A model generated the notes under the pieces. That model saw only the letters and a list, made by a program, of their open reading frames with translations, searched no databases and was not told the DNA's origin. A DNA stretch of 64,000 nucleotides, from positions 1 to 64,000 of IMG/VR virus record IMGVR_UViG_3300023242_000001; one strand, given 5' to 3'. This stretch comes from a virus. Made by a program: the position numbers and the translations under genes. Every line of letters begins with the position of its first letter. The stretch's first letter is position 1. Below are positions 54,932-64,000 of the stretch, in pieces.

Positions 54932-55843
54932 TCAGGTCATTCCTTCAATTTCTGCGCGGAAATTGCTTGAGCTAAAGTTGTCGATGGTCAGACTCCAGTC
55001 GGCCAAAAACCCGTAAACGATCAGCGAGCCGAACGCGGTGGAGCCAATCCACACGACGTTGGTGGCTCGGAACCGGCTGACGTTTTTGACCACCGCATCG
55101 ACGTTCTCGCGCAGCACCATGACGTTCAGGCTCATCTTTTGGCTGTAAGCGCGCTCGATCAATTGGATGTTCCCGAACGCATCGGGCTCTTTGCGCGAAA
55201 AGTCCCGAATCGAAACGCTGGCGCCGTATTGCGTGTCGCCCACTTCGGTCACAAGCCCGACAACCAGCATCCCGAGGGACACAGTGCCACCCGTGCGGGT
55301 GATGACGATGGTCAGCACGCCGTCGCCGTAAGCGGGCAAATTGAGCAGCGCGGCGTCGATCAGGTTGGTGATGACAAGCTCGGACTGCTCGTACACCGGC
55401 TCATAAAAATACTGATACCAATCGCCCACGTTGACGCCTGACGTGAGGTTGGTGCTGGCGCTGTAGACGGTTTCGCCACCGGCCACAAGCGTCACGCTGA
55501 CGGTTGCAGCACTCAGGCCCAACAGCGCCAAGCTGTTGATGCGGCCCGGCGCGAGCACGATGGTCATGCTGTCGGCCACGGTGGTGACAGTGCCGATTTT
55601 TTGGTCGAACATCGCCCAGCGGTTTGTCGGGGCAACAGCGAGCCATCGGGTCGGGGCCAGTTCGGGCAGCGTGGCGTTCACGCCGGCGATCACGTTCTCG
55701 TAAATCTGGTGCGTGGTGGTGCGGATCACGCGCTGGCCGACCGTGTAGCTGGTGGCAGCCACCCACGCCGGGTGGTCGGCCTCGGGCACGCTGCTGCTTA
55801 CCAGCCGGGCGTCGTTGATCGCGGTGGGTCGGATGAATTTCAT
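54932..55843 (-). CDS. minor tail protein (303 aa)
   Basis: N-terminal carbohydrate-module-like segment (W-V-A-A-T-S-Y-T-V-G-Q-R-V-I-R), then N-R-W-A-M-F-D, and D-W-Y-Q-Y-F-Y-E-P and Y-G-A-S-V-S-I-R-D-F-S-R-K-E, hallmarks of a minor tail protein found right after the tape measure in Proteobacteria siphophages. Overlaps the tape-measure gene end by four bases. Confidence 0.8.
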   Translation of the reverse strand: MKFIRPTAINDARLVSSSVPEADHPAWVAATSYTVGQRVIRTTTHQIYENVIAGVNATLPELAPTRWLAVAPTNRWAMFDQKIGTVTTVADSMTIVLAPGRINSLALLGLSAATVSVTLVAGGETVYSASTNLTSGVNVGDWYQYFYEPVYEQSELVITNLIDAALLNLPAYGDGVLTIVITRTGGTVSLGMLVVGLVTEVGDTQYGASVSIRDFSRKEPDAFGNIQLIERAYSQKMSLNVMVLRENVDAVVKNVSRFRATNVVWIGSTAFGSLIVYGFLADWSLTIDNFSSSNFRAEIEGMT

Positions 55844-58800
55844 GTAGCGGTAATCAGGGGTTGTTTGCCGCGTGCGGAGTCGTCAAGCACGGTGGCGGTG
55901 CGCTCGGCGTGGCGGTTGCCGGTGGCGCCGATGATTTGCAGGCGCTGCACTTCGGCGGTCAGCACTTCGACAAGCCTCTCAAGGCGTTCGGTGTTGCCGC
56001 CACCGACGCCCGATGTCGCCGGGTTGTAGGCCGCTGGCACAATCATTTCGCCTTTGTGGACTCGGGCGTCCATGTCGTAAGGCACGAAGTTGGTCCCAAC
56101 GGCAAACTGCCGCTTCTCTTTTTTGCCGTAGAGCGCGAAGTGAACGGACGCGAACTCTGCGGCGTCCATGCCGTAGGTGTTGCCGCTGGCGAAGCTGGCC
56201 GCCACATCGGGGTAGCGCAGCAGGTAGGCGGCAGCTCGGGCCGCGTCGGTTTGACCCACAAAGTCAGATACGCCCACCACAGCGCCCGATGCTGTTTTTA
56301 CGGTGCCGTCGGTGTTGAAAGCGCCCGACTGAAGCCGCGTGCTATCCACTGCGGCCTGCTGGATTTTCACTGCGGTCTGCGAGGTTTGCGCAGTTGTGAG
56401 TGCGGACTGTGCGCCCGTGAACGCAGCCAGGGCAGCGGACACACTCAGCACGCTGGCGTTGATCGCGCCCAGCGCGTCGAGCTGCTTGCTGTTGACGCCC
56501 ATCAGGTCGTCCAGCGCCTCAAGCTGCCGCTCGGCCTCGGTGAGCTGGTAGCCCGAGACTTCGCTCAGCTTGCTCAGTTTGCCCGCCAAGACCAGTTGAT
56601 CGCGCTCTTGCTCAAACCGCGTGGCGTAGGCGGCCTTGCCGATGTCGCCGGTCACGGCGCCGATGGCGTCGCGCAGTTGCGAGGCGTCGGGCAGGTAGCC
56701 GGTGGATAGCGCCGTGGAAAGTGCCGCATCAATGAACGCCCGACCCTGCGCGCCTGCCTGCGACGATGTGCTGGCGACCTCGCTGTACAAGCTGCGCACC
56801 GCGTCGCGCACGGTCTCGAACACGGCGCGGGTGGCGCTCACGGTTTCGCGCAGCACGTCGCTTTGCAGCTTGAGCGCGTTTTGCACCGCTTCGATGGCGC
56901 CGCGTGCGGACCCTTGTTGTGCCTGCTGCTCGGCTGCACGGGCGGCGTCGAGGTCGGACTGTGCGGCGTCGAGCGCCTTTTGCGCGTTGTCCACCGTGAG
57001 CTGGGCGGCGTTTTGCGCGAACTGGTTGAGTTCCTGCACAGCGCTGAGTTGGCGGGCGGCGAGCTGGTTGGCGCTGGCTTGGGCCAGCTGGTTGGCTGCG
57101 TCCGCCAAATTGCGCACCGACTGGTCTGCGGCGGCTGCTGCTGCTGCCAGTGACTGCGTGCTGCCGACAAGCTGCGCGAACCCTCCGCCCAAGGTCACCA
57201 GCGCTGCGTAGGTGGCTCGCCCGGCTTCGGTGTTGATGTCTTGCGCGTCGACCAGTGCGCGGTACTGCGCGAGAGCGTCGGTGGCGCCGGTGTTGGGCAG
57301 CGCAATGCCCAGCCTGCCCAACGTCTCGGTGAGCTGGCGAACGCCGGTGGCGGTGCGCTCTTGCTCGCTGTAGAACGCTTCGTAATAGGTGCTGGTGGCG
57401 GTGGCGAAGTTTTCTAGCCCGCCGAATGCGTCGGCCAGCTTGCTTGCCAAGTCGCCGCCGGCCAAGCTCGTTTCCAGCAGCTTGTAGCCCAGCGTGTCAA
57501 ACGTGCCGTTCACCACCAGCAGGCTGCTGCTGAGCCGCTTGATGGCCAGCAGCGAGGTTTCACCCGCCCGCACAAACTCCGTACCGCCCAAGATAGCTGC
57601 TGCGACCATTTCTTCCAGTTGGGCCTTGAACTCGGCCCCGCCCTTGGTCGGATCGCCGTCAAGTCGGTTGTTGTTGAACGAGCCAATCAGGTTTCCGCTG
57701 TCAAATATCTGCGCTTGTCCGAAGCTGTTTTTCTGCGCGCCTTGGCCGTTGAGGTTGGCCGTGAAGCCTGCGTCCATGCTGAGCGCCATGCTCATACCCA
57801 GGGTTTTTGCAAGCCCCTTGGCAGCGGTCAGCGTGCCGTCCACCGTGGTCTTCACGAAGTCCATCAGCCCCGCGTTCTGGCGATCAAGCATGTCGTGGTA
57901 TCCAGCGTCACCTGTGAGGCTCGTTGCAACGCTGCGCGCATCGGTTCCGCTGCTGCTGTAGATGCCGCCTTCATGCTGCCGCCCTGGGGTCTTCTTCATG
58001 AGGGCAGCTACAACAAGCGCCGCGACCGCAATGTAAGGTGCAGCCGCCATCAGGCCCGAAGCAGCGCCACCTATCGCTCCCATTGCTCCACCGCCCGCTT
58101 GCGCTGTGAGCGCCAAGCCGGATGCACCAAACCCGCCCGTCTGCGCGGCGAGCATGGCCGCCTGACTTCCGACGCCGATGCTGGTGGTCCCGATGGCTGC
58201 GCCGTAGGCGGCTGAGCTGCCCAGGATGCCAGCGCCGCCGAACAGGTTTTTCAGTCCTGACGCGCCGCTGAGAAGCCCGCTGATCCCACCACCGCCGCCG
58301 CCTTGCCCCGCCTGCGCCGCGCCGCCCGTCAGCGCACCGGTGAGGGTCTGAGCCAGAGGCTTCACAAATGCCTCGATCGTCGGGCGCAACACCATCTTCT
58401 TGAAGGCGTTGACCAGGTAGTTCTTCAACGTGTCGACGAAGCCCTTGCCACTGGAGAGTCCGGCCTCGATCGCATCCGAAAGGGTCTTGGTGATCTCGTC
58501 CTGCGTGCCTTTGTCGAACAGCTTGGCAGCCTCGCCACGCGCGTTGTCGACAGCCTGCACCATGGCGCCTTGCAGGCCTTTCAGCTCAGCCTCGGCCGCT
58601 GCCAGCAGGCCCGCGTCGCCGCCGCTTGCCTTGTAGTCGTCGATGGCCTTGCGGATCTTCAACTCTTGCGCCAAGAACTCCAGGCGCTTCTTGGCGCCGG
58701 CCATCTCGATGGAGGCGTTGCGCTCGGACATGCCAGCGGTGGACTCCTCGAGCGCAAGCTTCTCGCGCGCCAGCGTCTGCGAGTCAAGCTCTGCGGTGCG

Positions 58801-61800
58801 GAACTTCTCGAGGTCGTCGAGGGCTTTGTTGATGCCTTCGGCGCGCTTGATCAGGCGTTGGCGGGCTTGGTTGTCCGCCTCGGTATTCAGGGTCTTGAGC
58901 GCCTGCTCCTTCTGGTCGATACGGACCTCTAGGGCATCCACGTCCGCTGCGAGCTTCTCGGCCGAGCCCCTGACGGGCTTGTCTTTTGCAGCTTCGTCGA
59001 TCAGCTTTTGCTTGAAGACCTTGGCCTGCGCAATGTCGGCCTCGAGGTTGGCCTTGCGGGACGCCATCGTGCTGTCTTGCAGGCGGTCGATCGCGACGCC
59101 GTACTCCGACTCCGTGGTCAAGCGCAGAGCAAGTGACACCTTCTGCATCGACTCCTCTGCGCTCAGGCGCTCAGCGAAGCCCCTCTCCAGGGTGTCGCTG
59201 GCTTTGAAGAAGTTGGCGATTTCCTTTTGCAGGAACTCTTTTTTGGCGTTGGCTGCGTTCTCGAGCCCGGCGCGCAGCTCGGAGACGTCACCGTCAGGTC
59301 CCGTAGGCATCCTGCGGGTTTTGGCGGCCATCGCATCTGCGATGAGCTTGTTGTCGTTGGCGCTCTGCTTGAGAAGATCCGACAGATTGATAAAGTTGCG
59401 CTTGCGCGCGTCGGCCCCCTGCTGCACGAAGCGAACCGTCTCGTCGATGTCCCGGTCGCTCTGTAGGGCGGCCACTGCCTTGGCCCCTTGCGCCGTTTGC
59501 GCGTAAGGGGTGTCCCTCATCTGCTGGTTGATGCGCTTCTTCTCAACGGCCATGACCCGGGCGGTTGCAACCTCCTGCGCGGCAAGGTCGTCCAGCCGCC
59601 TAACTGCGATACGCGCTTCGACGTTGTAGCTGGCCACTTTGCCGGTCAGCACATCGATCATGGCCTGCTTCTCAACGGCCAGCCGCTCAATCTCGGCCTC
59701 CATTGCCTCCTTGGTGGCCGCGTAATGCCCGTCCACCGCGAAGGTGGCCTTCTCCATGGCCGTTTCGGTGTCCTTGGAGAACGCCAGGTAGGCGAGGCCT
59801 CCGGCAACCAAGATGAGGCCTATGGCGCCCGCCGCCGCGTTGAGAACAGTAAAGGTCCCCGCAACTCCCGTAGCGGTCACGCCGAGCGCAAGCAGTCCTG
59901 CGGTGAGCGCTGGCGTCGATACCAAGAGCAGCGCCTGCGCGCCTAACGTGAGCAGCATGGCGGCCTTGGCTGCAAGGTAGCCGGTGGCCATGGCAGCCAA
60001 CACCTTGGCGCTGTCTGCGATCAGGCGGATGAAGTCGGCGATGCCCACCACCAAGCTCTGCAGACCAGAGCGGAACTCCTCAGAGTTGAAGAGCGCTCGC
60101 ATGTCTTGGGCGAGAACCTGGATGGTTGGGCTGACGACGCCGAAGGTCTCGACCAGGGCGGCCTCAAGCGATGCAAAAACACCCTTGATCTGATTCGATG
60201 TCGTCTGGGCCAGGCCAATACCAGCCAGTGCGGCGAACCCCGGAGCCTCCTGCAGGGTCTTGACGATCTCATCGAGCCTGTTCTCGAACCCCTTGCCCAG
60301 CTCCTTTGCCTCTTGGTTGAAGGCCATGAGAACGGCCGACAAAGATTTCAGGCCCCGCTCGTTGCCCAGAGCCTGCAGCGCTTTCTGCTGCTTCTCAAAG
60401 CTCATCCCTGAGAGCTCCTTGGCAAGGTCTCGCACGATCTCTGTGAGCGGGCGGACGGCCTTCGTCGCCTCGTCAAAGATGCTGGTCTTGAAAACCTTGC
60501 TCAGCACCATCTCAGCGCGCTTGGACGAGCCCATCAGCTCGTTGTACATGTTGCGCATGGCCGTGCCAGCCGCGGTGCCGCGAATGCCGGATTGGCTTAG
60601 CAGGGCCAGCGAGGTGGCTGCGTCCTGCACAGTCACACCGTACTGCTGAGCCACGGTCGAGGCCTGCTTGAACGACTCGGTCATCGACTCGACCGAGCTC
60701 ATCGAGATCGCGGCTGCCTTGGAGATTACGTCAGCTACCGTGCCAAAGCCTGTGGCCGAGTAGCCAAACGCGGTGGAAATCGCCACCAGGCTCTCGGCGG
60801 CTTTGCCCGCTTCAAGCTCGCCAGCAACCGAGAAGTTGAGCACAGGTTTGAGCGCTGCCAGCTGCTCTTTGGCATTCAGGCCCGCCAGCGACAACGCCTT
60901 CAGCGCGGTCGCGATCTCCAGCGGACCCTTGACGCCCACGCGGGCAAGGTCCAGTGTTGACTGGGCAAGCTGGTCGACAGCCTGCGCCGACTCGCCGCCG
61001 AGGTAGCGGATGGCTGCCAGGCGCTGCTCAAACTCAGCGCCCTTTTTGATGGTCTGCACGAATGCGTTGGAGACGGCGGCGCCGACGAGCAGCGGCGCGA
61101 TCGAGCCCCAGGTCAGCCACATGGCGTTGAACCCGGAGGCAAGTCCCCGCGTGAGTGAGTGGCCCTCGCGCAGCAGCCCGTTCAGGTTGCCCATGGTGCC
61201 AGCAGCGCCGGCCCCCGCGCGCTGGAATTCACCGAGGTTTTTGGCTGCGGCCAGCGCCGCAGCCCCGTACCTTGCTGCGGCATCCGCCTCCGACATACCC
61301 CCCGCCAGCGCCCCGGACACGCGCGTGGCGCGGCTCAGCTGCCCTGCGCGACTCATGGCCCCGAATCCCGCGTTCCTGTCGATGCCTGCGTTGGCGTTGC
61401 GGGCTGCCCGAAGCTGTGCCGCCGCCTCCTCTGCGGCCAGCTTGGCCCTCAGGGCCGCCAGACCCGCGCCAGCTCTGGCCACCAGCGCCTGGCGCTCTTG
61501 GGCCAGCCTCTGCTCGTCGAGCATGTCCTGGCGGCGCAGGGCCAGGACTTTCCCCGAGTTTCTCGCCTCCGCCTCGAACGCGGCCAGCCGAAGCTTGTCA
61601 CCCGCAAACAGGCTGGCCCCTCCCTGGCGGGCCTGCTGAAGTTCGGGGATTGTTCGTGCCCGGAGGGCGGCAAGCGCCTCATACTCCGCCTGCACCTGTG
61701 CCCGTCGTGCGCGCACCGTAGCGATGGTGCTGTCCGCCAGCGCATCCCCAACCTCTTTGCCGACCTTCTTGGCTGCTGCCTTGCCCTTGCCCGACGCGTC

Positions 61801-62028
61801 CTTGACCGCCTTGTCAAGCTCTGCCGGCAGCTCCTTGAAGGCCTTCTGCATCGAGATGGCCGTGCCCTCCAGCGTACTGCGCAGGTTGAGCATCTGCGCG
61901 CGCAGGTTGCGGGGCGACATGTTGTCGATCTGCGCCAGGGCCGCGCGAAGATCCGCCAACGCCTCCAGTATCGGCCGCATGGCCTGGACAAACGGGGCGC
62001 CGTCAACTCCGATGTTTGGCCCGCTCAT
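55840..62028 (-). CDS. tape measure protein (2062 aa)
   Basis: Sets tail length and enters the host envelope. Long coiled-coil and Ala-rich segments throughout, hydrophobic stretches near residues 700-760 and 1290-1440, and a TMP core with E-S-M-T-E-S-F-K-Q-A-S-T-V near 460. If about 1.5 Angstrom per residue applies, the tail would be near 0.3 micrometre. The ATG at 62028 overlaps the stop of a short upstream duplicate. Confidence 0.9.
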   Translation of the reverse strand: MSGPNIGVDGAPFVQAMRPILEALADLRAALAQIDNMSPRNLRAQMLNLRSTLEGTAISMQKAFKELPAELDKAVKDASGKGKAAAKKVGKEVGDALADSTIATVRARRAQVQAEYEALAALRARTIPELQQARQGGASLFAGDKLRLAAFEAEARNSGKVLALRRQDMLDEQRLAQERQALVARAGAGLAALRAKLAAEEAAAQLRAARNANAGIDRNAGFGAMSRAGQLSRATRVSGALAGGMSEADAAARYGAAALAAAKNLGEFQRAGAGAAGTMGNLNGLLREGHSLTRGLASGFNAMWLTWGSIAPLLVGAAVSNAFVQTIKKGAEFEQRLAAIRYLGGESAQAVDQLAQSTLDLARVGVKGPLEIATALKALSLAGLNAKEQLAALKPVLNFSVAGELEAGKAAESLVAISTAFGYSATGFGTVADVISKAAAISMSSVESMTESFKQASTVAQQYGVTVQDAATSLALLSQSGIRGTAAGTAMRNMYNELMGSSKRAEMVLSKVFKTSIFDEATKAVRPLTEIVRDLAKELSGMSFEKQQKALQALGNERGLKSLSAVLMAFNQEAKELGKGFENRLDEIVKTLQEAPGFAALAGIGLAQTTSNQIKGVFASLEAALVETFGVVSPTIQVLAQDMRALFNSEEFRSGLQSLVVGIADFIRLIADSAKVLAAMATGYLAAKAAMLLTLGAQALLLVSTPALTAGLLALGVTATGVAGTFTVLNAAAGAIGLILVAGGLAYLAFSKDTETAMEKATFAVDGHYAATKEAMEAEIERLAVEKQAMIDVLTGKVASYNVEARIAVRRLDDLAAQEVATARVMAVEKKRINQQMRDTPYAQTAQGAKAVAALQSDRDIDETVRFVQQGADARKRNFINLSDLLKQSANDNKLIADAMAAKTRRMPTGPDGDVSELRAGLENAANAKKEFLQKEIANFFKASDTLERGFAERLSAEESMQKVSLALRLTTESEYGVAIDRLQDSTMASRKANLEADIAQAKVFKQKLIDEAAKDKPVRGSAEKLAADVDALEVRIDQKEQALKTLNTEADNQARQRLIKRAEGINKALDDLEKFRTAELDSQTLAREKLALEESTAGMSERNASIEMAGAKKRLEFLAQELKIRKAIDDYKASGGDAGLLAAAEAELKGLQGAMVQAVDNARGEAAKLFDKGTQDEITKTLSDAIEAGLSSGKGFVDTLKNYLVNAFKKMVLRPTIEAFVKPLAQTLTGALTGGAAQAGQGGGGGGISGLLSGASGLKNLFGGAGILGSSAAYGAAIGTTSIGVGSQAAMLAAQTGGFGASGLALTAQAGGGAMGAIGGAASGLMAAAPYIAVAALVVAALMKKTPGRQHEGGIYSSSGTDARSVATSLTGDAGYHDMLDRQNAGLMDFVKTTVDGTLTAAKGLAKTLGMSMALSMDAGFTANLNGQGAQKNSFGQAQIFDSGNLIGSFNNNRLDGDPTKGGAEFKAQLEEMVAAAILGGTEFVRAGETSLLAIKRLSSSLLVVNGTFDTLGYKLLETSLAGGDLASKLADAFGGLENFATATSTYYEAFYSEQERTATGVRQLTETLGRLGIALPNTGATDALAQYRALVDAQDINTEAGRATYAALVTLGGGFAQLVGSTQSLAAAAAAADQSVRNLADAANQLAQASANQLAARQLSAVQELNQFAQNAAQLTVDNAQKALDAAQSDLDAARAAEQQAQQGSARGAIEAVQNALKLQSDVLRETVSATRAVFETVRDAVRSLYSEVASTSSQAGAQGRAFIDAALSTALSTGYLPDASQLRDAIGAVTGDIGKAAYATRFEQERDQLVLAGKLSKLSEVSGYQLTEAERQLEALDDLMGVNSKQLDALGAINASVLSVSAALAAFTGAQSALTTAQTSQTAVKIQQAAVDSTRLQSGAFNTDGTVKTASGAVVGVSDFVGQTDAARAAAYLLRYPDVAASFASGNTYGMDAAEFASVHFALYGKKEKRQFAVGTNFVPYDMDARVHKGEMIVPAAYNPATSGVGGGNTERLERLVEVLTAEVQRLQIIGATGNRHAERTATVLDDSARGKQPLITAT

Positions 62029-62144
62029 TTGCCGACCCCCGAACGCGCAACCAAAGCAGCCCGCAGATCCGTGAGGCTCTGCAGGATGGGTTGCATGGCC
62101 TTCTGGAAGGAAGAGCCATCAAGGTTGACGTTGGGTCCGCTCAA
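62025..62144 (-). CDS. 39-residue duplicate of the tape-measure N-terminus
   Basis: TTG at 62144, three bases after the GT stop, opens LSGPNVNLDGSSFQKAMQPI and so on, closely matching MSGPNIGVDGAPFVQAMRPI of the tape measure over about 30 residues. Its stop overlaps the tape-measure ATG as ATGA. A partial tandem duplication kept as a coupled mini-gene, possibly binding the chaperone. Confidence 0.6.
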   Translation of the reverse strand: MSGPNVNLDGSSFQKAMQPILQSLTDLRAALVARSGVGK

Positions 62145-62146
62145 AA

Positions 62147-62874
62147 TCAGGTCTTCGGTTGGTTGTCGGACCAGTGCTTCATGAACACCCGGTCAAGCAT
62201 TTGCAGAATGCGCAGATACTTGCTGCGCAGGTCCGCTTGCGCAATCCCCACCAGCTGCAAATAAGCCAGAACCTCAGAGATTTGCAGCGGTGTGGGCGAG
62301 CTGTGCCCCATGGGGCGCGCCTGATCCAGCGCCCGAAAAGCCTTCAGCAGCTCTTGGTCGCGCGAGTGAAGTTTGGGGATGGCGCGCAGCGGCGCCGGGG
62401 TCACCCCCGTCTGCTTGGCGCGCTCCTGAAACGCCTTGATGTGAGGCCCCCACCGGAGCTCCCACACCAAGTACGCGTTCAGCCGTTTCCCTGGGCCTCT
62501 TCGGCCTTCGCCTTGAAGGACTCAAAGTTGTCGCTGAAGCCCGAGACCTTCTTGCGGAAGTCCTTGATGCGCAGCATGGTGCGCGCCATCTCGCGCGAGT
62601 AAGCGACGTCCTTGCCCTTGAACTGCAGGCCCTTCCAGTCAAGCAGAATGGTGTCGGCCATCAGGTCGACCATCAGGCCTTCAGCCACCTGGTCGGCCTC
62701 GGGCGTGTTGCCCTCGAGCTCGACCGAGTGCTTCTCCATGGCCTTGCGCAAGCCGGCGGCGAAGTTGCTGTTGCCCGAGCGCGCCACGCGCACCGAGGCC
62801 GTCTTGGAGAGGTTGAACCAGGTGCCCTCGACTTCAGAGGTTTCGTCGGTGGCGTAGGAGGAGAAAATGTCCAT
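62147..62874 (-). CDS. tail assembly chaperone GT, -1 frameshift product
   Basis: Translation starts at 62874 as for G and shifts -1 at G-GGA-AAC (62485-62491), entering the frame that runs to 62147 (RLNAYLVWELRWGPHIKAFQ and on). This adds about 112 residues. In lambda and relatives G and GT escort the tape measure during tail assembly; position just before the tape measure fits. Confidence 0.75.
62479..62874 (-). CDS. tail assembly chaperone G-like protein (131 aa)
   Basis: Shorter, unshifted product ending in Q-G-N-G just after the slippery site. Acidic, helical, with L-S-K-T-A-S-V-R-V-A-R-S-G-N. Follows the tail tube gene, as in other siphophages. Confidence 0.75.
   Translation of the reverse strand: MDIFSSYATDETSEVEGTWFNLSKTASVRVARSGNSNFAAGLRKAMEKHSVELEGNTPEADQVAEGLMVDLMADTILLDWKGLQFKGKDVAYSREMARTMLRIKDFRKKVSGFSDNFESFKAKAEEAQGNG
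62485..62491 (-). other. -1 slippery heptamer GGGAAAC
   Basis: On the - strand G GGA AAC in the G frame, two codons before the G stop: the X-XXY-YYZ form used for -1 frameshifting (lambda uses GGGAAAG). Confidence 0.8.
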
Positions 62875-62952: not shown

Positions 62953-64000
62953 TTAAGCTACAACCGCGCGGGTGATGCGGATGCCGCGGTTCGTGGCTGC
63001 GTTGAAGAAGGCAGAGAACGGCAGCGACAGCATGGTGTCGTCGGCCCGCCCGCCTGGGTTCATGCCACCGTCGGTGTAGTTGATCTTGTCAAACTCGATC
63101 AGGTAGCCGTTGCCGGCGCTGTCGGCCACACCCAGCACAAGGCTTGAGGTCGTTCCCTGGAGCCACTTGTTGTAGTAGGTCGCGTTCTCGACGTACATCT
63201 CGATGTTGCCGCTCAGTTCCAACTCGCCCAGGCCCACATCAGCGTTGCCGAACACACCGATGGCCTTCTGGCCCCGCGCGTTGTTGTTGATGCTCAGGCT
63301 CACCGACTTGATGAAGCTGGAGCTGCCCGTCAAGATGCTCTGGCCACCTTCGTAGATGGCACCCACGTCGGTCACCGAGTTCATCACCTCGAACGGCTGC
63401 GACGCAGCGGGCGTGCCCGGCAGGCGGGTGGTGGGCTGAATCGTGTGGCCCATGCCCGTGAAGCCGAACGAGCCGGTGATGATGGAGCCCACTTCCATGG
63501 ACATCTCCATCGTGTTGGGGCGCATGCCGGTGTAGGTGAGCACCTGGCTGATGTCGGTCATCAGGTATTCCATGGCAAACGAGCGCGCAACCGAGCCGTT
63601 GGACATGGTCGACTGGCTGATCGCGTAGCCCGCAGCGGCGGTGATGCCCAGGCCGGGTGCGACGATGGGCGTGCTGGGGTCCAGCGTGATGGTGGTTGCC
63701 GTGGTCGAGAGCACCTTGAACCAGCGGTTCGCGAAGTAGGCCCGCACGGCCGCAGTGGCCGCCACTGGGGGCACCACCTTGAACCAGGAGCCCACAGCCA
63801 GGGTGGTGAATGCGGACGCGCCCGTCAGCGCCACAGCCGCTGTGATGGTGCTGGCTGCGGTGGTGGCGCCAAAAACGGCACCCAGGCCGCCAACGCCGTG
63901 GTGAGCGTACGCCGAAGAGAGCACGCCCTCGAGGAACGGGTCGTATTCGCGGGCAGACAGCTCGAAATTGAAGCCGCCGTCGACATCCAGGTCGGTGCGG
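62953..64000 (-). CDS. major tail tube protein, 5' end outside the window
   Basis: The frame stays open to the window edge (about 349 residues visible). G-G-F-N-F-E-L-S-A-R-E-Y-D-P-F-L-E-G-V-L near the start and T-G-M-R-P-N-T-M-E-M-S-M-E-V-G and G-N-A-D-V-G-L-G-E-L-E-L-S-G-N-I are typical of phage tail tube proteins of the TTP type. A GTG at 63924 is internal, not the start. Polymerises into the tail tube around the tape measure. Confidence 0.85.
   Translation of the reverse strand, partial: RTDLDVDGGFNFELSAREYDPFLEGVLSSAYAHHGVGGLGAVFGATTAASTITAAVALTGASAFTTLAVGSWFKVVPPVAATAAVRAYFANRWFKVLSTTATTITLDPSTPIVAPGLGITAAAGYAISQSTMSNGSVARSFAMEYLMTDISQVLTYTGMRPNTMEMSMEVGSIITGSFGFTGMGHTIQPTTRLPGTPAASQPFEVMNSVTDVGAIYEGGQSILTGSSSFIKSVSLSINNNARGQKAIGVFGNADVGLGELELSGNIEMYVENATYYNKWLQGTTSSLVLGVADSAGNGYLIEFDKINYTDGGMNPGGRADDTMLSLPFSAFFNAATNRGIRITRAVVA

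Follow-up and report, generated by a model that had tools for sequence, protein, structure and literature searches.

The 39-codon open reading frame (ORF) that lies between the tail assembly chaperone GT and the tape-measure protein (TMP) of this phage (62144–62025, minus strand) is best explained as a stub that remains from an older tape-measure allele and has, at the most, a role as a coupling mini-cistron, an explanation to which a probability of about 0.5 is given from comparison of the sequences. The small ORF is real and old and, as far as the relatives compared can show, confined to this phage. It lies in a window of 64 kb, the whole stretch of DNA that was analysed, which is part of a virus record of 76,295 bases.

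All of the features described here are on the minus strand, where the genes run in the order tail tube, G chaperone, T frame, small ORF and tape measure. The window holds the 3′ part of the tail tube protein (62953–63999), the gene running past it, and this part matches PF18906 (Phage_tube_2) at 1.4e-30 and phrog_290. Next is the tail assembly chaperone G (62479–62874), which matches phrog_313 at 1e-16. The sequence contains a GGGAAAC slippery heptamer (62485–62491) for the −1 frameshift from G to T, and the same heptamer is also present at the T-frame junction in six relatives (L003, L030, L034, L036, L041, and L029). From the slip site, the T frame of the GT chaperone runs for 114 codons to a TGA (62147–62491; PF23812, Phage_TAC_18, 4.5e-9). 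This stop (62149–62147) is followed by 2 nt and then by the predicted TTG start of the small ORF, giving TGA-TT-TTG. The product of the small ORF is MSGPNVNLDGSSFQKAMQPILQSLTDLRAALVARSGVGK, and its TGA stop overlaps the ATG of the TMP (62028–62026) as ATGA (62025–62028), the coupling overlap that had been described in the sequence-only reading. Opening near an upstream stop and closing on a downstream start, the small ORF has the arrangement of a mini-cistron. The TMP itself (55840–62028) is 2,062 aa in length and matches PF10145 at 2.7e-30, as well as phrog_25966 and others. A GGGGGT Shine-Dalgarno-like (SD) site is located 6 nt before its ATG (62035–62040). The predicted SD strength is strong at the TMP ATG (duplex of −9.3 kcal/mol), compared with none at the TTG of the small ORF (−1.0) and −1.5 at the L003 start. 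Both a promoter and a terminator were looked for at the junction of GT, small ORF and TMP, and none was found.

That a partial tandem copy of the TMP N-terminus sits between GT and the TMP, as first read from the sequence, was confirmed. When the 76,295-base record was searched, the small-ORF product and the start of the TMP, MSGPNIGVDGAPFVQAMRPILEALADLRAAL, showed 61% identity over 31–33 residues with an E value of 2.4e-10, and the record contains no match besides these two. Comparison of the TMP N-terminus with its own 600 nt upstream gave a score of 105 here and of 20–37 in 21 related loci, so the similarity is far above chance. The homologous part of the small ORF covers codons 1–32 (62049–62144), as supported by alignment, and its partner is the conserved N-terminal module of the TMP, codons 1–36 (61921–62028), which was recognized by alignment. 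Homology stops at codon 32, and the tail made up of codons 33–39 and the stop (62025–62048), inside which the TMP SD sits, matches nothing. In the alignment, residues P12, R18, and E22 are common to the window TMP, L003, and L010, but are gone from the copy, as is a D near position 35. No Pfam or PHROG match was obtained for the small ORF, which has 39 codons only and is without the tape, hydrophobic and C-terminal regions of a functional TMP. Inspection by eye for a leftover GT tail between the two copies revealed no convincing similarity.

Related loci were gathered by scans for the TMP core and the tail tube, and all of these are distant relatives, the nearest being L003 with 73% identity in both G and the TMP core. 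Conservation in related phages had been set as a check on the small ORF, and it was found in none of the 21 related loci tested, all of them distant, the junction being covered in each and several of the records being fragmentary. Absence from all relatives was one half of what the sequence-only reading had named as counting against its proposal, and it holds for these loci. With a profile of the N-terminal module, exactly one copy per record was detected in the six relatives that have the module. In L003 and L010 the TMP opens at a GTG, 2 nt and 0 nt past the GT stop, respectively, and there is no second copy. The spacing from the slip site to the TMP start is 463 nt here vs 347 nt in L003, a difference of ∼116 nt, so the window phage is longer here by the gain of about one small ORF, and the copy occupies the ancestral TMP start position, where the nearest relatives begin their TMP.

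Some further features of the closer relatives were observed. GTG starts of the TMP shortly past the GT stop are found at 4731 in L003, 5128 in L010, and 6871 in L034. The TMP starts of L003 and L010 have a weak SD or none, so TMP synthesis in these phages may depend on ribosomes that have frameshifted into T. Between the window phage and L003, 29 of 39 four-fold sites are identical in G (62479–62874) vs 13 of 36 in the T frame (62147–62491), a contrast suggesting that one or other of these two phages has recombined close to where G meets T.

No named donor phage was found for either copy. A tblastn search with the TMP N-terminus returned no match at E values up to 1 in 50,697 phage records, the 39-mer gave one unconvincing match only (E 8), and the N-terminal profile gave one weak match of 27 residues in 399 bacterial genomes of one order. 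TMP residues ∼1569–1816 (window ∼56580–57322, minus strand) match the DNA of Acidovorax phage Aval at 69.8%, and this is the only part of the TMP region that matches a named phage at the DNA level; the N-terminus does not. This match hints at a Comamonadaceae host and at mosaicism in the TMP genes of the group.

The age of the copy can be judged from its divergence. Over 31 codons, the first, second and third positions are identical between the copies at 61, 84, and 42%, respectively, and four-fold sites are identical at 3 of 10, where chance would give ∼0.33; between the window TMP and L003 the figure is 4 of 8. The DNA identity is only ∼62%, and the divergence between the two copies is as large as that between different phages. 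As synonymous sites are saturated and amino acids have been kept, the duplication is not fresh, contradicting one of the proposals made from the sequence. A fresh in-place duplication that has had no time to decay would fit with the copies being adjacent, in the same orientation and seen only in the window phage, but given the identities above it can practically be discounted. In a crude simulation, which covered 31 codons only, set the branch lengths equal, used GC-rich mutation and retained those runs whose third-position identity came near that observed, neutral drift in place reached the observed amino-acid identity in 0–3 of ∼1,100 runs, whereas constraint at an omega of ∼0.4 or lower gave it more readily. 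On this simulation, a relic that has drifted neutrally since an old in-place duplication was rejected. With neutral drift in place rejected, the copy would have been under selection unless it was recently imported. The result suggests protein-level constraint on the segment over most of the period since the copies parted, be it as a gene in its own right or at the beginning of a complete TMP in another lineage. In the N-terminal tree the branch of the copy is the longer, at 0.62 vs 0.20, with weak support, and by identity the two window copies are closest to each other, at 61% vs 58% and 52% to L003, again with weak support.

According to the stub explanation, an older TMP allele at the ancestral start would have been cut after its helical N-terminal module, of which the first 32 codons remain, and the complete current TMP would then follow the stub with its own SD and ATG. 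The route may have been a 5′-end exchange between diverged TMP alleles, with the new gene attached where the helical N-terminal module of the old allele ends, or alternatively an ancient in-place duplication. Ribosomes finishing GT could restart at the TTG and read the 39 codons, and in doing so they would traverse the region that is predicted to pair with the TMP SD and end on the ATGA over the TMP start. What the sequences show directly is the anatomy and homology of the copy, how old its divergence is, that the relatives tested lack it, where it lies and how strong each predicted SD is; the recombination route, the translation of the small ORF and its coupling to the TMP are what we infer from these arrangements. 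Counting for the stub are the position of the copy at the ancestral start, as marked by the GTG sites of L003 and L010, its absence from the 21 loci together with the single copy in the six relatives, and the mosaic nature of the TMPs in this group, as evidenced by the Aval match. The inter-phage scale of the divergence, the longer branch of the copy and the loss of P12, R18, E22, and the D count in the same direction, as does a TTG with no SD beside a TMP ATG with a strong one. The window copies being mutually closest by identity, however, fits an in-place duplication as well, and this counts against the stub, as do the failure to find a donor phage and the rejection of neutral drift, unless the import was recent.

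The main rival to the stub is a selected mini-protein that would join the TMP oligomer or a neck contact, that is, a free TMP N-terminal helix working in trans, for example in the coiled coil of the oligomer or in contact with the terminator or connector, and this is regarded as possible but somewhat unlikely. From an AlphaFold model (pLDDT 83) and the hydrophobic moment, the peptide is predicted to form a single amphipathic helix at residues 10–35, with the heptad F13-M17-I20-L24-L27-L31 at the same positions as in the TMP, which agrees with such a role, and the TMP of lambda is trimeric and has a three-helix coiled coil at its C-terminus (PMC10721106). For TMP residues 1–160, AlphaFold gave a model of low confidence (pLDDT 57). 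The ORF being intact and overlapping as ATGA also speaks for a mini-protein, as does protein-level conservation at saturated third positions, which neutral drift so rarely produced. That conservation, however, may date from time within a full tape measure, and the absence from 21 of 21 relatives, the weak TTG start and the loss of residues conserved elsewhere all argue against a mini-protein. In its more specific form, where a long-selected free-helix mini-protein is expressed in step with GT and caps or tunes the TMP oligomer in trans, the proposal is considered unlikely.

An RNA-level device, in which the small ORF serves as a leader that must be translated for the TMP SD to open and the peptide is irrelevant, is improbable. 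The TMP SD is predicted to pair with codons 3–4 of the small ORF with a probability of ∼0.8, which would fit with coupling, and the predicted energy needed to open it falls from 10.2 to 5–6 kcal/mol once the 5′ part is cleared, but this occlusion is not beyond chance, as 0.40 of synonymous randomizations are at least as closed, which also counts against the coupling account of the stub. The fold of the whole region has a z-score of −1.1, and on these two grounds a selected SD-sequestering hairpin was rejected. Furthermore, the conservation tracks codon positions, pointing to past protein-level selection rather than to an RNA device. The suggestion that the small ORF acts on the tail assembly chaperone as a decoy or regulator, also made in the sequence-only reading, found no support and is decidedly improbable, despite the ORF sitting between GT and the TMP and sharing the N-terminal sequence. 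It is absent from relatives that have the same G and T genes, and a 39-mer so poorly initiated, from a TTG without an SD, would hardly compete. In other phages, from which this case against a decoy is argued, gpG binds multiple TMP regions and there are many gpG per gpGT (PMC5009743), the proposed chaperone sites are the hydrophobic segments and repeats of the TMP, and the N-terminal end of the TMP is believed to lie towards the tail terminator or connector (PMC5099701; cited alongside PMC4493119 on the chaperone–TMP question). There is a slim chance of an assembly or base-call error, whereby a one-base error splits a single TMP whose N-terminal helix is repeated in tandem, or sequence from two strains is joined in the contig. 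The sequence comes from one virus record of a public collection of contigs and the frames are one base apart at the ATGA, but an ATGA together with a strong, suitably spaced SD is what an ordinary gene junction looks like, and a tandem N-terminal module is present in no relative examined.

Set beside known systems, the small ORF is homologous to the N-terminal 31–33 residues of siphophage TMPs (PF10145, PhageMin_Tail, and related PHROGs), namely the adjacent TMP and those of six relatives, but is without their tape, hydrophobic and C-terminal initiator-binding regions. Chaperones of the G/GT type with a −1 frameshift (lambda gpG/gpGT; PHROG 313, PF23812) are encoded adjacent and upstream here, in the same order as in lambda and TP901-1, whereas the small ORF has no chaperone similarity and is a TMP fragment. 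As in coupled ATGA mini-cistrons, there is a stop/start overlap and the downstream SD lies inside the upstream ORF, yet the small ORF differs from these in that its sequence copies the N-terminus of the very gene downstream. To our knowledge, leader ORFs are normally not such copies. TMP genes are known to carry internal repeats and duplications (PMC3271669), and a TMP N-terminal duplication has been engineered in TP901-1 (described in PMC5099701). TMPs tolerate and undergo the duplication of segments, as here, but those duplications are in frame within one protein, whereas in this phage the copy is a separate ORF. A literature search for tape measures that are duplicated, split or truncated yielded in-gene repeats only. 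Among the related loci, L012 (1–800) and L014 (1–900) contain TMPs with long, near-identical internal repeats, with units such as AWQAKLQVGSLKIAEAIEAAEARESRAKLAWKAKMMVGSAAIAE, near the contig end.

A peptide that is both produced and functional would represent a free-standing TMP fragment acting in trans, and would offer a handle on the role of the poorly resolved TMP N-terminus. If the small ORF is instead a stub, it would illustrate one way in which tail genes may exchange their 5′ ends and a new gene acquires its own start site.
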